From Streptomyces bathyalis (GTDB lineage Bacteria; Actinomycetota; Actinomycetes; Streptomycetales; Streptomycetaceae): 64,000 nucleotides of DNA. The first letter of the stretch is position 1, and each line of letters begins with the position of its first letter. This document shows positions 17,969 through 24,608 of this stretch, piece by piece. Both the position numbers and the translations under genes were made by a program. Where the stretch lies: contig NZ_CP048882.1 in assembly GCF_015910445.1 (NCBI RefSeq), positions 1,860,001 through 1,924,000 of the forward strand. The letters are read 5' to 3'. Below the pieces are notes generated by a model. It saw nothing but the letters and a program-made list of their open reading frames with translations. It ran no database searches and was not told where the DNA came from.

Positions 17969-18448
17969 TCAGGGCTTGGCGAGACGTTCCGCCAGCGCGC
18001 GCTGGACCGGCTCGGGCACCAGGTTGGAGACGTCGCCGCCCCAGGTGGCGACCTCCTTGACCAGGCTGGAGGAGAGGAAGCTGTACGTGGGGTTGGTCGG
18101 CACGAAGAGTGTCTCGACGCCGGAGAGCCCGTTGTTCATCTGGGCCATCTGCAGCTCGTAGTCGAAGTCCGAAACCGCGCGGAGCCCCTTGACGATGGCG
18201 GGGATGTCGCGGTCCTTGCAGAAGTCGACGAGCAGTCCGTGGAAGGCCTCCACCCGCACATTGCCGAAGGCGGCGGTCACCTCGTGGATGAGGTCGATGC
18301 GCTCGTCGACGGAGAACAGGCCCTGCTTGGACTTGTTGATCATCACGGCCACGTAGACCTGGTCGTAGAGCTTGGAGGCGCGGCCGATGATGTCGAGGTG
18401 TCCGTTGGTGATGGGGTCGAAGGATCCCGGACAGACTGCGCGACGCAC
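17969..18448 (-). CDS. coaD: Phosphopantetheine adenylyltransferase
   Basis: Fourth step of coenzyme A synthesis: transfer of AMP to 4'-phosphopantetheine. The 159-residue product starts (V)RRAVCPGSFDPITNGHLD with the nucleotidyltransferase TxGH motif and has the C-terminal loop FLSSSLVKEVA. The GTG at 18446-18448 is chosen for the GAGG eight bases upstream and the exact family length; the open frame runs on into the end of rsmD. The rsmD-coaD order is widespread, and the 53-base gap suggests one operon. Confidence 0.95.
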   Translation of the reverse strand: MRRAVCPGSFDPITNGHLDIIGRASKLYDQVYVAVMINKSKQGLFSVDERIDLIHEVTAAFGNVRVEAFHGLLVDFCKDRDIPAIVKGLRAVSDFDYELQMAQMNNGLSGVETLFVPTNPTYSFLSSSLVKEVATWGGDVSNLVPEPVQRALAERLAKP

Positions 18449-18501
18449 TGGTGGTTCCTCGCTCTCCGGACGAAGGGGGGTCTGTGGGCTGTCCGCGGAG
18501 T

Positions 18502-19104
18502 TCATGGTGTGGGGGTGTCTCCGCTTGCGGCGGCGCGACCGTACCAGAGCGTTCCTTCGCCGTAACGCCTGGACCTGAGGCCCTCGAAGCCCTCGGGCCA
18601 GCGGAATTGGCCGCCACGCGTACTGCGCTCCACGGTGACGAGCGCCTCGTCGGCCAGCCAGAGCCCGGCGCGGAGTGTGAGCAGAATCTCGCGCACGCTC
18701 TCGTCGGTGACGGCGTACGGGGGGTCGAGGAAGACCACGTCGTACGGGTCGTCGGGAGGCCCTCCGGCGAGTGCCGCTGCGGCCTTCGCGTGGCGCACCT
18801 CGGCGCCGGGCAGACCCAGCGCGCGTACGTTCTGCCGGATGGTGCGGGCCGCGCGGGCGTCCGATTCGACGAGCAGCACGTGAGCGGCGCCGCGTGAGAG
18901 CGCCTCCAGGCCGACCGCGCCGGAACCGCCGTACAGGTCGAGCATGCGTCTGCCGTGCCAGGCAGCGGCACCCGAGCCGCCCAACTGGGCCTCCCAGCTG
19001 GAGAACATGCCCTCGCGCGCACGGTCGGACGTGGGGCGGGTGCCCTGGCCCGGCGGCACGGTCAGCCGGCGGCCGCCGACGGCTCCTGCGATCACGCGGG
19101 TCAT
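18502..19104 (-). CDS. rsmD: 16S rRNA m2G966 methyltransferase RsmD
   Basis: SAM-dependent methyltransferase of the small subunit rRNA. The 200-residue product has MTRVIAGAVGGRRLTVPPG at the N terminus, the SAM loop LDLYGGSGAVGLEALSRGA, the acidic end of strand 2 in LLVESD, and the catalytic motif FLDPPYAV typical of N2-guanine methylases. The ATG at 19102-19104 has AAGGAA about 9 bases upstream. It lies between recG and coaD on the same strand. Confidence 0.93.
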   Translation of the reverse strand: MTRVIAGAVGGRRLTVPPGQGTRPTSDRAREGMFSSWEAQLGGSGAAAWHGRRMLDLYGGSGAVGLEALSRGAAHVLLVESDARAARTIRQNVRALGLPGAEVRHAKAAAALAGGPPDDPYDVVFLDPPYAVTDESVREILLTLRAGLWLADEALVTVERSTRGGQFRWPEGFEGLRSRRYGEGTLWYGRAAASGDTPTP

Positions 19105-19214: not shown

Positions 19215-22200
19215 TCATCCCTTGTCGAGGTAGTCCTCGCGCTCCTCGTCCAGCAGGGCCGCCAGCGCCGTACGCAGCTCCGGCAACCGCTCCAGCTCCG
19301 GATCCTCCGCGACGACGGCGGTCGCGGCCTGCCGCGCCGCCTCGATGATCTCCTCGTCCTCGATCACGGCGAGCATCCGCAGCGAGGAGCGCACGCCCGA
19401 CTGCGCCTGCCCGAGCACATCGCCCTCGCGGCGTTGTTCCAGGTCGACGCGGGAGAGCTCGAAGCCGTCCTGCGTCGAGGCGACGGCGTCCAGACGTGTG
19501 CGGGCGGGGCCCGTCTCCGGCGCCTCCGTGACCAGCAGGCACAGTCCGGCTGCGGAACCACGGCCGACGCGTCCGCGCAGCTGGTGGAGCTGGGAGACGC
19601 CGAAGCGATCCGCGTCCATGATCACCATGACGGTCGCGTTCGGTACGTCCACGCCGACCTCGATGACGGTCGTCGCAACGAGGACGTCGATGTCGCCCTG
19701 GGCGAAGCGGCGCATGACCTCGTCCTTGACGTCGGGCTGCATCCGTCCGTGCAGGGCCTCGACGCGGAGCCCGGCCAGGGGCCCCTCGCGCAGCTGCGCC
19801 ACGGTGTCCAGCACGGCCAGCGGCGGACGCCTGCTCTCCTCCCCGCCGTCGGCGTCCGTCCCGCCCGCCTGTCCGACCTCCTCCGCCTCCTCGGCGGCCC
19901 TCACGGCCTTCTTCTTCCCGGATCTGCCGCCCGGCTTCCCGGCCTCCGCCTGCTCCTCCTCGTCGCCGATGCGCGGGCAGACCACGTACGTCTGGTGTCC
20001 GGCCTCCGTCTCCTCCCGCACGCGCTCCCACGTGCGGGCCAGGAAATGGGGCTTGTCCCTGGCGGGCACGACATGGCTGGCGATGGGTGAGCGTCCGGCC
20101 GGGAGCTGGTCCAGCACGGAGGTCTCCAGATCGCCGAAGACGGTCATGGCGACGGTGCGCGGGATGGGTGTCGCCGTCATCACCAGCAGGTGCGGAGGAT
20201 GAACTCCCTTGGAACGCAAGGCGTCCCGCTGCTCCACGCCGAAACGGTGCTGCTCGTCGACGACGACGAGGCCCAGGTCGTGGAAGCGGACCTTGTCCTC
20301 GATCAGCGCGTGCGTGCCGATGACGATTCCGGCCTCGCCGGTCGCCAGATCGAGCAGGGCCTGGCGGCGGGCGGCCGCGCCCATGGAACCGGTGAGCAGC
20401 ACGACCTTCGTGGCGCTGTCCGCGCCGCCGAGCATGCCGCCCTCGGCGAGTTCGCCCATCATCCCGGTCACCGAGCGGTGGTGCTGCTGCGCGAGGACCT
20501 CGGTGGGGGCCAGCAGCGCGGCCTGGCCGCCGCTGTCGACGACGGTCAGCATCGCCCTGGTGGCCACCATCGTGTTGTGCGTGACCGTGAAATTGTCGGT
20601 GACGTAGGCACTGTCGGGGTGGCGCACGCTGATGCACTGGACCTGCTTGCGGCCGACGGGCTCGGCCGCGCGTACGTAGCGGCGCAGCGATTCGGGTGCG
20701 CTCCCCCGCGCGCTGCCGTCGGCCTCGCGGGGCTCCAGGGCCTCCGAGCGGAACGGGCTGTGCTCGGGCGGCAGCAGCAGTGTGACGGCCGACTCCGCGG
20801 CATCGCCGTCGGCGCCGTCCGGCCGCCCCTCAGGGGTGATGCGTGCGTGTCCGCCGAGCGACCGCACCAGCCACGCGACGTCCTCGACGAGCGCCCGGGA
20901 GCGGGAGCGGAGCACGACGGCGTCGTGGTCCCCGTCCGGCGCGGGCCCGCTGTCCCAGCCGTCTGCCCCCGCGTCGAGGATCCCCTGGAGCAACGCGAGC
21001 CTGTTCTTGAGCGAGTCCTCCATGCACCCGCGCGGCACGGGGCCCGCGCCGCCGGGACGCCCCAGCTCCGCACCCGTCGCGTACGGGTCCGCCGTGCCCT
21101 GGGCGGGGGCGCCCAGATCCACCGGCACCGCGTGCGGCAGATACCACTTCGGCGAACCCGCGGGCGACGTCAGGTCGTTCCGGATCTCACGCGTGGTCAG
21201 CGCCTGAGGACGCTCGCCCCGCGACCACGCCCCGGCGGTGGCGACGAGCCACAGATGCTCGTCGTCGCACTCCACGCTGCTTCCGTCGGAGAGCGTCAAC
21301 CGCCATACGTCACGCTCCCCTTGGGGAAAGACGCCGTCCACCGGCGCCGGCTCGCCCGAGGGCGTGATCACCTCGTCGCCGACCCCGATCTCCCGCATCT
21401 CGCGGAACCCGCCGGGCGTGAGGACGAGCGCGTCCAGCGGCTGCGCCTTGCCCGAGCCGACCTCGCCCTGGAGGAGGCGGTGCATGGGGTGCTCGGTTGC
21501 GAGGTCGTCGAAGACCTCACGGCTGACGTGCTGCTGCCCCTCGGTGAGGGTGAAGGGCAGCTTGGCGTCGAAGGCGTCCAGCAGACCCCCCTCGACGGGA
21601 ACGCGCGCCACGGCGGGCAGTTGGGCCTCGGCGACCCTGCGCCGCGCGAGGGCGACCTGGAGGATGAACGCCTCGTCCCACTTCAGCCTGTCGCGGGCCG
21701 CCGCGACATCCGCCTTCGTGCGCGGCCGATGCACCTTCTCGAACGCGTCGGGCAGCGGGATCAGCCGCCGGTCCTCGCGGATGGCGGACGGCAGCGGGTC
21801 GACGAGGCCGTCCCAGCCCGTGGCCTGCATGGAGGCGAGCACCGTGCCGACGGACTTGGCGATCTTCCAGGACGCCATCTGCGCGACGGCCGGATAGATC
21901 GGCATCAGCCTGTTGGCGAACGCGTCGACGTCCTCGTCGCCGCTTCCGGCCCCGAGCTTCTCGTACTGCGGATGCGCCAGCTGGAGACGGCCGTTGAAGA
22001 CCCCGACCTTGCCGGCGAACATCGCCCGCGTGCCCGGCTGCAGGTCCTTCTGCGGCTGGTAGATGCCGCGGCCGAAGAAGACCAGCTGCAACTGGCCGCT
22101 GCCGTCGGTGAGAACGATCTCGAGCCGCTGCCCCCTGCCGCGGTTGAAGGAGTGCACCTTGGACTTGGCGACCTGCGCCACGACGGTGACGTGCTCGTCC

Positions 22201-22379
22201 AGAGGCAGATCCGACAGCCGCGTCAGCTGGCCGCGCTCCTCGTACCGCCGGGGATAGTGGTGGAGGAGGTCACCGACCGTGTTCAGGCCGAGGTGTTCGG
22301 CCAGGACCTTGGCGGTGCTGCCGCCCAGGTGCCTCTTCAGGGATTCGTCGAGCGCGGACACGCCACCATTGCACACCAT
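19215..22379 (-). CDS. recG: RecG branch-migration helicase, interrupted by an intein
   Basis: Superfamily 2 helicase that remodels stalled forks and Holliday junctions. The open frame is 1054 residues; removing a 291-residue intein (residues 312-602) leaves about 763, in the normal RecG range. Visible parts: the wedge OB domain (about 60-140), Walker A split as GEVGSGK / T by the intein, then PTEVLAQQHH, VVVDEQHRFGVEQ, TATPIPRT, and the C-terminal helicase motifs with QLHQLRGRVGR. A Lys/Glu-rich insert lies near 800-835. The start is uncertain: the listed ATG lacks a ribosome binding site, and the GTG at 22359-22361 is equally plausible. Function requires splicing, since the intein splits the ATP-binding loop. 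Confidence 0.95.
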   Translation of the reverse strand: MVCNGGVSALDESLKRHLGGSTAKVLAEHLGLNTVGDLLHHYPRRYEERGQLTRLSDLPLDEHVTVVAQVAKSKVHSFNRGRGQRLEIVLTDGSGQLQLVFFGRGIYQPQKDLQPGTRAMFAGKVGVFNGRLQLAHPQYEKLGAGSGDEDVDAFANRLMPIYPAVAQMASWKIAKSVGTVLASMQATGWDGLVDPLPSAIREDRRLIPLPDAFEKVHRPRTKADVAAARDRLKWDEAFILQVALARRRVAEAQLPAVARVPVEGGLLDAFDAKLPFTLTEGQQHVSREVFDDLATEHPMHRLLQGEVGSGKAQPLDALVLTPGGFREMREIGVGDEVITPSGEPAPVDGVFPQGERDVWRLTLSDGSSVECDDEHLWLVATAGAWSRGERPQALTTREIRNDLTSPAGSPKWYLPHAVPVDLGAPAQGTADPYATGAELGRPGGAGPVPRGCMEDSLKNRLALLQGILDAGADGWDSGPAPDGDHDAVVLRSRSRALVEDVAWLVRSLGGHARITPEGRPDGADGDAAESAVTLLLPPEHSPFRSEALEPREADGSARGSAPESLRRYVRAAEPVGRKQVQCISVRHPDSAYVTDNFTVTHNTMVATRAMLTVVDSGGQAALLAPTEVLAQQHHRSVTGMMGELAEGGMLGGADSATKVVLLTGSMGAAARRQALLDLATGEAGIVIGTHALIEDKVRFHDLGLVVVDEQHRFGVEQRDALRSKGVHPPHLLVMTATPIPRTVAMTVFGDLETSVLDQLPAGRSPIASHVVPARDKPHFLARTWERVREETEAGHQTYVVCPRIGDEEEQAEAGKPGGRSGKKKAVRAAEEAEEVGQAGGTDADGGEESRRPPLAVLDTVAQLREGPLAGLRVEALHGRMQPDVKDEVMRRFAQGDIDVLVATTVIEVGVDVPNATVMVIMDADRFGVSQLHQLRGRVGRGSAAGLCLLVTEAPETGPARTRLDAVASTQDGFELSRVDLEQRREGDVLGQAQSGVRSSLRMLAVIEDEEIIEAARQAATAVVAEDPELERLPELRTALAALLDEEREDYLDKG
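20574..21446 (-). mobile_element. RecG intein, class 3 type, with degenerate LAGLIDADG endonuclease
   Basis: In-frame protein intron of 291 residues between Lys and Thr of the RecG Walker A motif. It starts AQPLDALVLTP, so residue 1 is Ala, which cannot start standard class 1 splicing. Block B ends DDEHLWLV with Trp 66, two residues after the His. Block F has VQCISV with Cys 271, and the end is TVTHN with Thr 289, His 290 and terminal Asn 291, followed by extein Thr. Trp (B:12), Cys (F:4) and Thr (G:5) are the WCT signature of class 3 inteins. The middle keeps one LAGLIDADG-like stretch (LLQGILDAGADG) with an insertion and a broken first motif (DPYATGAELGRP), so homing activity is probably lost. 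Confidence 0.93.
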
Positions 22380-22495: not shown

Positions 22496-24202
22496 TCATT
22501 CGACGCCGATCAGCAGCAGCGAGGAGTGCTGCCGCCCCTCGTAGACCACCGTGTCGACGGCGAGGTGACCGCCGCGCACCTGCTCCTCCAGCCGGTCCGT
22601 CAGTCCCTGCGGAGCATGCTCTCCGACGATCAGCGTGACCAACTCCCCGCCCGCCGCGAGCATCCGCTCCAGCACGTCCGCGGCCGCCTCGGCGACGTCG
22701 CTGCCGATCACGACCACGTCGTCCTCCACGAGACCGAGCACGTCACCGGCCTCGCAGACGCCGGCCATCGTCCAGAACGGGCGGTCGGCGACGGTCACTT
22801 CGCCGTAGCGGGTCGCCCCGGCCGCGGTCGTCATGGCGACGACGTCGTCGTCGAAGCGACGCTCCGGATCGTGCACGGCCAGCGCGGAGATGCCCTGCAC
22901 AGCGGCCCGGGTCGGCACGACCGACACGCGCAGCTCCGGCTCCTCGGCCCGCGTACCGTCCGCCGCACGCGACGCGGCGGCGTGCAGATCGATGTCGTTG
23001 GGCAGCAGCACGACCTCCGCCGCCCCGGTCGCGCGCACGGCCGCTGCCAGGGGCTCCCCGTCCGGGCTTCCGAGCGCTTCCTTCGCCCGTACGACCGTCG
23101 CGCCGGCGTCCTCGCAGAGCCCCGCCAGCCCGTCCCCGTGCACGACGGCGACGACGGCGCGCCCGTGCCGGGCGGTGCCGCCTGCGTCGGCGTGCTCCGG
23201 GGCGCAGGGCTCGCCTGCCTCCCCCGCGGTGAGGTGGGTGATGCGGATGCGGTGCGGACGTCCCGCGCCGACACCGGCCTCGACCGCCGCACCCGCGTCG
23301 TCGACGTGCACGTGCACGCTCCAGAGCCCGTCCCCGCCGCCGACGACGAGCGAGTCGCCGAGACCGTCGAGACGTTCGCGCAGGCCGGTCACCGCGGCGT
23401 CGTCGGCGTCCAGGAGGTACATCACCTCGTACGCTCCGCCGCCTCCGTCGGGCGGCACGGGCGCGCCGGACGAAGTGCCGCTTCCCACCGTGGTGTTGGG
23501 CCCGGTGTAGGCGCGGCGCCTGCGCGAGACCTCGCCCTGCTCCGGGTCCGCGAGGGCGTCGGCCAGCGCTCCGAGCACGGCGACCAGGCCGCTGCCGCCG
23601 GCGTCGACGACTCCCGCGCGGCGCAGCACGTCGAGCTGCCCGGTGGTCTCCGACAGCGCCTCGTGCGAGCGCTCGTGCGCGGCGCGGGCCACGGCCTCGG
23701 CATCGGCGTCCTGTTCGCCGGCCGTACGGGCCGCCTCGGCCGCCGCCCTCGCGACGCTGAGCATCGTGCCCTCGACGGGGTGGGCGACGGCCGCGTAGGC
23801 GGAGTCCGCGGCGCGCGTCAGCGCCTCGGCCAACAGCCGCCCGGCGCCCGGGACTTCACCCGCGTCGGCGGCCTTCGAGCCTTCGGCCCCGTCGGTTGCC
23901 CCGTATGTCTCCGCCATGCCGCGCAGCAGCTGGGCCAGGATCGTGCCGGAATTGCCGCAGGCACCGAGAAGCGCGCCACGGGACAGGGCGCGCAGCGCGG
24001 GGGCCGCCGGATCGCTCGCATCCCACTCGGCCTCCAGGGCCCGCGCAGCGGCTTCCAGGGTCCGGCGCAGGTTGGTGCCGGTGTCGCCGTCCGCCACGGG
24101 GAAGACGTTGATCGCGTCGATCTCCTCGCATGCCTCACCGACCGCCTCCAGCGCGAACGCGATCCATGCCCGTACCACCGTGGAGTCGAACGGCTGCGGC
24201 AC
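22496..24202 (-). CDS. FakA/YloV-like DAK2-domain kinase
   Basis: A 568-residue protein of the DhaL-phosphatase family. It has an N-terminal DAK2 (DhaL) nucleotide domain with INVFPVADGDTGTNL at about 33-47 and GACGNSGTILAQLLRG near 85, a variable middle region, and a C-terminal DegV/DhaK-like domain (about 330-568). Homologues such as S. aureus FakA phosphorylate fatty acids bound to FakB; no fakB is adjacent here, so the partner would be elsewhere. The GTG at 24200-24202 is preceded by GAGGAGG at 7 bases, one of the best ribosome binding sites in the window, which overrules the upstream frame. recG follows downstream. Confidence 0.85.
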   Translation of the reverse strand: MPQPFDSTVVRAWIAFALEAVGEACEEIDAINVFPVADGDTGTNLRRTLEAAARALEAEWDASDPAAPALRALSRGALLGACGNSGTILAQLLRGMAETYGATDGAEGSKAADAGEVPGAGRLLAEALTRAADSAYAAVAHPVEGTMLSVARAAAEAARTAGEQDADAEAVARAAHERSHEALSETTGQLDVLRRAGVVDAGGSGLVAVLGALADALADPEQGEVSRRRRAYTGPNTTVGSGTSSGAPVPPDGGGGAYEVMYLLDADDAAVTGLRERLDGLGDSLVVGGGDGLWSVHVHVDDAGAAVEAGVGAGRPHRIRITHLTAGEAGEPCAPEHADAGGTARHGRAVVAVVHGDGLAGLCEDAGATVVRAKEALGSPDGEPLAAAVRATGAAEVVLLPNDIDLHAAASRAADGTRAEEPELRVSVVPTRAAVQGISALAVHDPERRFDDDVVAMTTAAGATRYGEVTVADRPFWTMAGVCEAGDVLGLVEDDVVVIGSDVAEAAADVLERMLAAGGELVTLIVGEHAPQGLTDRLEEQVRGGHLAVDTVVYEGRQHSSLLLIGVE

Positions 24203-24608
24203 GTGAGGACCTCCTCTGGAGTCCGGAGACGGCACGGTCTCCGTCAGTTGTGTTCCGTCTGCTTCCCGTATGCCCCCGGTCCGCGGCGAGCTGCTGCGCG
24301 CGACGATCCGCGACGAGGGCCATGCGGTTTCCGAAGGCTAGATGAGAGCACCGGTGGTGTGCGGAACGGAACAGGCCTGCAGGCGAAGGGGCCTGGAGAT
24401 ACTCGGCGGACAGCGCGCTCATGCGGGACGATCGGACCGTTGGGCAGGCCTCACGGGCTGGTTTCGCCGTTCATGAGCAGGCGTTGTATGCTGCTCCGGT
24501 TGCCTGATGAGTATCGGGCGTCATGACCTCCCTGGCAGTGCCGGTCGATCACTGTGCCTGCGTCGCCGGGATTTTCCGTACATGCATCTGAAGTCTTTGG
24601 AGTGACCC
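24203..24608. other. Divergent intergenic region between the FakA-like gene and rpmB
   Basis: About 405 bases that must contain divergent promoters for the FakA-like gene and rpmB. The rpmB-proximal part (24470-24600) is more AT-rich, but I could not choose between several possible -10 hexamers. Short open frames here have no conserved features. Confidence 0.5.

Follow-up and report, generated by a model that had tools for sequence, protein, structure and literature searches.

Class 3 inteins are defined by a Trp at position 12 of block B, a Cys at position 4 of block F and a Thr at position 5 of block G (PMC5050341, PMC7891396), and it is the block F Cys that starts their splicing reaction (PMC6195587, PMC7891396, PMC5050341). 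A compilation of 2020 comprises 1702 class 3 inteins (PMC7891396), a mycobacterial DnaB class 3 intein is reversibly inhibited by oxidants via a Cys48-Cys118 disulfide (PMC6195587), and the table of a 2018 review names RecG among the hosts of inteins (PMC5874633). Here we describe an insert in the RecG helicase of Streptomyces bathyalis, encoded within a stretch of 64,000 nucleotides (the window; contig NZ_CP048882.1, positions 1,860,001 to 1,924,000), in whose own numbering all coordinates are given. With a probability that we put at about 0.9, judging from the sequence and a structural model, this insert is a class 3 intein that is predicted to splice out and rejoin the ATP-binding loop of RecG, and whose homing endonuclease is likely dead.

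An in-frame insert within the Walker A motif of RecG

The recG reading frame lies on the reverse strand and is divided as follows.

19215..22379, minus strand: recG precursor gene, intein included; 1054 codons plus stop, recognised by Pfam and NCBIfam matches
21447..22379, minus strand: N-extein, residues 1-311, the last of which are the Walker A residues GEVGSGK; placed by comparison with empty sites
20574..21446, minus strand: putative class 3 intein of 291 residues, from sequence, conservation, alignment and predicted fold
19218..20573, minus strand: C-extein, residues 603-1054, the first of which is Thr (+1); from reading of the open frame

The precursor shows the Pfam domains of RecG in their usual order (RecG wedge, OB, DEAD, Helicase_C and RecG_dom3_C) and scores 1070.9 bits against the RecG equivalog model NF008167 of NCBIfam (cut-off 995); its database copy, at 1048 amino acids, is 6 residues shorter than the 1054-residue frame. 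Residues 312-602 (window 20574-21446) constitute an in-frame insert of 873 bp, or 291 amino acids, that is absent from homologues and without which the host protein is colinear with them: the joined exteins (763 amino acids and 82.3 kDa, counting from the ATG) align to 5 of 5 intein-free RecGs at 57.7-76.8% identity, and the block of the alignment that spans the junction is free of gaps. Likewise, of 29 RecG loci from related genomes, 21 have no insert and read GEVGSGKT or GDVGSGKT, and the other 8 carry the intein at the identical site. A preliminary description, made from the letters of the window, had given exactly this position for the insert, had correctly named Ala1, Trp66, Cys271, Thr289, the terminal His-Asn and the Thr at +1, and had expected that removal of residues 312-602 would restore RecG, as the alignments now bear out; its mass for the spliced protein, about 81 kDa, falls slightly short of the computed one.

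The residues on which splicing would depend are distributed over two regions at the ends of the insert.

21114..21446, minus strand: N-terminal splicing region, intein residues 1-111, with blocks A and B; from alignments and model, boundary set by eye
20574..20693, minus strand: C-terminal splicing region, intein residues 252-291, with blocks F and G; from alignments and model, boundary set by eye
21444..21446, minus strand: Ala1 codon, a residue 1 without nucleophile; Ala in 81 of 81 loci and 128 of 128 proteins
21249..21251, minus strand: Trp66 codon, WCT triplet, block B position 12; 81 of 81 loci
20634..20636, minus strand: Cys271 codon, block F position 4, predicted first nucleophile; 81 of 81 loci
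20580..20582, minus strand: Thr289 codon, WCT triplet, block G position 5; 81 of 81 loci
20574..20579, minus strand: His290-Asn291 codons, C-terminal cleavage pair; 81 of 81 loci

The insert thus lacks a residue-1 nucleophile, possesses the WCT triplet and a terminal His-Asn, and is followed by a nucleophile at +1 (Thr in 81 of 81 loci), and its predicted fold is of the HINT type. The insert is not a chance feature: in all 120 of the listed homologues (120 of 718 matches at E <= 0.001) GEVGSGK is followed by an insert in which Ala1 and the Trp, Cys, Thr, His and Asn are conserved. Losses of splicing residues numbered zero among the 81 loci and 128 intein-bearing database proteins. The WCT triplet, the missing residue-1 nucleophile, the conservation and the predicted fold together support the assignment to class 3 that the preliminary description had proposed. 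Its suggestion that the insertion may already be known agrees with the 2018 review table and with the homologues just mentioned; in the passages on RecG inteins that were read, no statement of their class was found.

By the class 3 route, Cys271 would attack the Lys311-Ala1 bond and so become linked to the N-extein by a thioester. The N-extein would then be transferred to Thr+1, Asn291 would cyclise with the help of His290 to free the intein, and an O-to-N shift would produce a normal peptide bond, making GEVGSGK-T whole. Because the insert separates Lys from Thr within Walker A, the precursor should be inactive as a helicase until splicing, and RecG probably works only after intein removal. 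The dependence of RecG on splicing, proposed in the preliminary description, is supported as an inference by the split Walker A motif and by a search of the genome with the whole precursor, which found no second full-length RecG.

Several points weigh against this interpretation. In Pfam, the window protein matched none of the intein, Hint and LAGLIDADG models even at E values as high as 1, and the sole NCBIfam match of the intein by itself was a weak one to a replicative-helicase model (E 0.023). Furthermore, a Trp at block B position 12 also occurs outside class 3 (PMC7891396), and the case for splicing is drawn wholly from sequence and modelling.

Endonuclease erosion and inheritance of the alleles

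Between the two splicing regions lies an eroded LAGLIDADG endonuclease, which adds to the preliminary description.

20694..21113, minus strand: LAGLIDADG homing endonuclease remnant, intein residues 112-251; from motif spacing and alignments
21051..21080, minus strand: LAGLIDADG motif 1 remnant ATGAELGRPG, intein residues 123-132, acidic residue gone
20964..20993, minus strand: LAGLIDADG motif 2 remnant LLQGILDAGA, intein residues 152-161, acidic residue gone

Neither two motifs that each bear an acidic residue nor a recognisable LAGLIDADG_3 domain is found in the window intein. The motifs are 29 residues apart, versus 95-97 in 28 intact alleles, a shortening of ~67 residues; the Pfam cut-off for LAGLIDADG_3 was exceeded by both full-length alleles scanned, and a shortened allele (L050) stayed below it (18.7 vs 22.5 bits). 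With both motif acids and the ~67 intervening residues lost, the homing endonuclease of the window allele is likely dead; the allele represents a known kind of intein in an endonuclease-dead version.

To describe allele states across the 81 loci, a motif was scored as intact solely when Asp occupied the catalytic place (the rare Glu counting as lost), and an intein as full length when it had at least 330 residues. By these rules 28 loci are full length with both Asp, 27 are shortened with neither Asp and 26 are intermediate. On a 78-row extein tree (L048, L049 and L052 dropped; L043 kept, on a very long branch), a minimum of 14 changes separates full from shortened and 20 separates intact from not intact, the direction being unpolarised, and some of these changes may be re-invasions.

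Silent divergence (dS) distinguishes the two extremes. In pairs with an extein dS of 0.05-0.5, the ratio of splicing-region dS to extein dS had a median of 2.68 for intact full-length alleles (221 pairs, 215 of them above 1.5; 10 further, saturated pairs were excluded) versus 1.12 for shortened alleles with neither Asp (118 pairs, 13 above 1.5), and a value of 1.67 over 360 pairs for alleles with any defect. Splicing-region and extein dS were correlated at 0.34 for intact (361 pairs) versus 0.86 for eroded alleles (300 pairs) when extein dS was below 0.8. Because of these differences in ratio and correlation, our reading is that intact alleles appear to have moved between lineages, whereas eroded alleles appear to descend with the gene.

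The window allele falls into the second category. The same 7 genome loci form one clade around it in the extein and intein trees (Shimodaira-Hasegawa-like approximate likelihood ratio test supports of 99 and 95). In a larger tree of proteins, which retained 220 of 225 rows and from which two fragments with a similar intein (P0011 and P0012) were excluded, all 15 complete proteins of the window clade (support 98), that of the window included, carry the intein in a shortened form that lacks both Asp, and outside the clade the next two rows are intein-negative and the third positive (supports 77, 78 and 47). The all-positive clade is not an artefact of searching with the intein, since the C-extein by itself, used as the query, returned the same 15 members as its best matches (7998 candidates sharing most words were scored). 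Presumably an ancestor of this clade acquired the intein, whose endonuclease was then lost and which has since been passed on together with recG. In the homing-cycle model, endonuclease decay follows intein fixation. As RecG would stay intact only if the intein were removed exactly or the allele were replaced by an intein-free one, selection for RecG should keep the splicing residues while the endonuclease decays.

This account is tempered in several respects. Shortened alleles of any motif state had a median ratio of 1.32, with 81 of 206 pairs above 1.5; the ratio pairs are non-independent, so that no p-value is claimed for them, and 4 of the 81 rows (L043, L048, L049 and L052) were dropped from them. 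The codon bias of the intein may differ from that of the exteins, the eroded group being the only control. In addition, an eroded endonuclease could still bind DNA, and clade-wide retention is evidence of common descent, not of function.

Ratios of nonsynonymous to synonymous divergence (dN/dS) between the window and L009 were 0.144 for the N-terminal splicing region, 0.24 for the C-terminal one, 0.597 for the endonuclease remnant and 0.138 for the exteins (0.130 for exteins against L010). The other comparisons among the 15 pairs were in part less clean: the N-terminal splicing region reached 0.69-0.80, on few changes, in L024-L049, L028-L045 and L028-L046, and the C-terminal one 0.85 in L039-L044. 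These values bear on two alternatives. The intein could still be mobile, its remnant endonuclease cleaving DNA or recent movement having been helped in trans; endonuclease-intact alleles elsewhere do look mobile by their median 2.68-fold excess of silent divergence, and an allele at the same site resides on a mobilizable plasmid. However, the loss of both motif Asp and ~67 residues, the remnant dN/dS near 0.6 and the clade of 7 shared by both trees make such mobility very unlikely for the window allele. Equally unlikely is a splicing-dead insert, with recG being a pseudogene or working with the insert in place. Splicing is here a prediction, and dN/dS of the splicing regions is indeed relaxed in shortened alleles without both Asp (median 0.272 vs 0.071 in intact ones), but all catalytic residues are invariant, the exteins are strongly constrained, the Walker A Lys would be parted from its Thr, and the genome search gave no second full-length RecG.

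Cys60 and the possibility of regulation

The oxidant-sensitive DnaB intein provides a precedent for a different reason for retention, namely that a splicing switch holds RecG inactive under stress, for instance through oxidation that links Cys60 to Cys271, and lets it go once conditions are better, and that this benefit, rather than the mere difficulty of losing the intein, has kept it in place. The second cysteine concerned is the following.

21267..21269, minus strand: Cys60 codon, a conserved Cys four residues before His64, not class 3 catalytic; 81 of 81 loci, 127 of 128 proteins

The position of the insert in the P-loop, the cysteine that is the predicted catalytic nucleophile, the retention in the whole window clade and the conservation of Cys60, the only other near-invariant Cys beside Cys271, are all compatible with such a switch. 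Nevertheless, the place of Cys48 in DnaBi1, the partner in the disulfide, is occupied by Val47 in the window intein (among 120 relatives, 119 have Val and one has Ile), and a toggle in the style of DnaBi1 was rejected on this ground. Cys60 may well be structural, as it belongs to a segment of block B (E59 to W66) in which every position is invariant in a 44-row alignment, and a Cys at its place is common in other inteins and not specific to RecG: it is found in 3 of 5 phage and plasmid relatives (Ala in 2 of 5), in 4 of 4 PhoH inteins and in gp41-1, with Ala in DnaBi1. A disulfide of gp41-1 was looked for in the text of PMC7664689 and none was found there. The conservation of Cys60 is thus weak evidence of redox control; we regard a regulatory intein as improbable, and the 'post-translational control' of RecG announced in the preliminary description found no support. 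Slightly less probable still is the stronger proposal that in this clade the intein has turned from a parasite into a part of its host, kept as a maturation switch in which Cys60 and Cys271 sense redox or metal stress.

Occurrence and comparison with known systems

Matches to the intein at E 0.001 were obtained in 123 of 392 congeneric genomes. Counting all 123 as carriers of the RecG intein was rejected, as the four weaker matches that were opened proved to be PhoH inteins; a count by hand from the listing, taking best matches of 1.3e-45 or better (the next genome being at 1.4e-24), gave 71 likely carriers among 392 (18%), the window genome included, 8 of which were confirmed by the whole-precursor panel. 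In that panel (G000-G024), the same 8 carriers and no others were found among the 24 genomes with a RecG match, and G001 had no match. Of 16 genomes outside the genus, 1 was a carrier, 13 had RecG without intein and 2 gave no match; 4 of 80 named loci belong to Actinomadura. A mobilizable plasmid of Rhodococcus rhodochrous (NZ_CP120357.1) encodes an intein-bearing RecG-type helicase (L128 103-3777 / L130) next to two tyrosine recombinases and is, by inference only, a possible vehicle for the RecG intein. Phage records matching the intein numbered 377; none reached 60% identity, and in 104 of them the match extended over 80% or more of the query. No match was confirmed when viral contigs were scanned with the single sequence; thus no close phage donor was found, and a phage origin was not adopted. 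The genome of the window itself contains a weak partial match (L090, G000:C1:354564-354821; E 8e-4, 39% over intein residues 76-155) in a 220-residue frame.

As to the host gene, the first C-extein residues (20559-20573) read TMVAT in the window and in L009-L012, with Leu at the fifth place in the other carriers and intein-free RecGs read, a difference that may reflect drift or an adaptation of the extein to its local setting. By reading, recG is flanked by CoaD- and RsmD-like genes downstream (~17969-19100) and by a gene for a DAK-domain protein upstream (22496-24235). Among the database matches listed, 'helicase-related protein' is the deposited name of many intein-bearing RecGs, whereas intein-free ones that have been given a name mostly go under RecG; automatic naming seems to suffer from the insert, and annotators should be aware that an intein-bearing RecG may stand only under the former name.

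In streptomycete RecG, nature has set up an experiment on the fate of inteins: within one genus, a single site occurs without an intein, with an intein whose endonuclease is intact and with one whose endonuclease is eroded. Erosion has been repeated in several lineages without any loss of splicing residues in the 81 loci and 128 proteins, and it is this recurrence of erosion, combined with vertical retention, that may be of use to specialists: given such allelic variety, the reason why a dead homing intein stays where it is can be tested directly in harmless laboratory streptomycetes that are easy to handle.

PI-SceI and other intein homing endonucleases belong to class 1 inteins and are active. 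The class 3 DnaB inteins DnaBi1 of Mycobacterium smegmatis (6bs8) and MchDnaB-1 of M. chimaera (6rix) have, like the window intein, the WCT triplet, no residue-1 nucleophile and a helicase ATPase as host; the predicted HINT fold of the RecG intein superimposes on them at 1.5-2.0 A over 123-127 residues, with W66 and C271 aligned to the Trp and Cys118 of DnaBi1. It differs from the DnaB inteins in its host, in its endonuclease remnant and in the absence of the redox partner Cys48. Streptomyces PhoH inteins (L091-L094) share the class 3 residues, a middle part of LAGLIDADG type by reading and 42-46% identity over the first 130-145 residues, whereas their host, named by reading, is a PhoH-like ATPase and their site, MRGR|T, lies outside the Walker A loop; they form a second Streptomyces class 3 family, with a Cys-Cys pair before the block B His. 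The Rhodococcus plasmid intein (WP_217580321.1) occupies the same GSGK|T site with class 3 residues and is 45.7% identical over 91% of the intein, its host being RecG by Pfam domains and its best NCBIfam hits being RecG models, below their whole-protein cut-offs; it differs in being plasmid-borne, in its 353 residues, in having Asp in both endonuclease motifs and in an Ala at the place of Cys60. Also close are the full-length RecG inteins of Streptomyces, Kitasatospora and Actinomadura, identical to the window's in host, P-loop site and splicing residues and mostly 338-341 residues long, versus 291 in the window.
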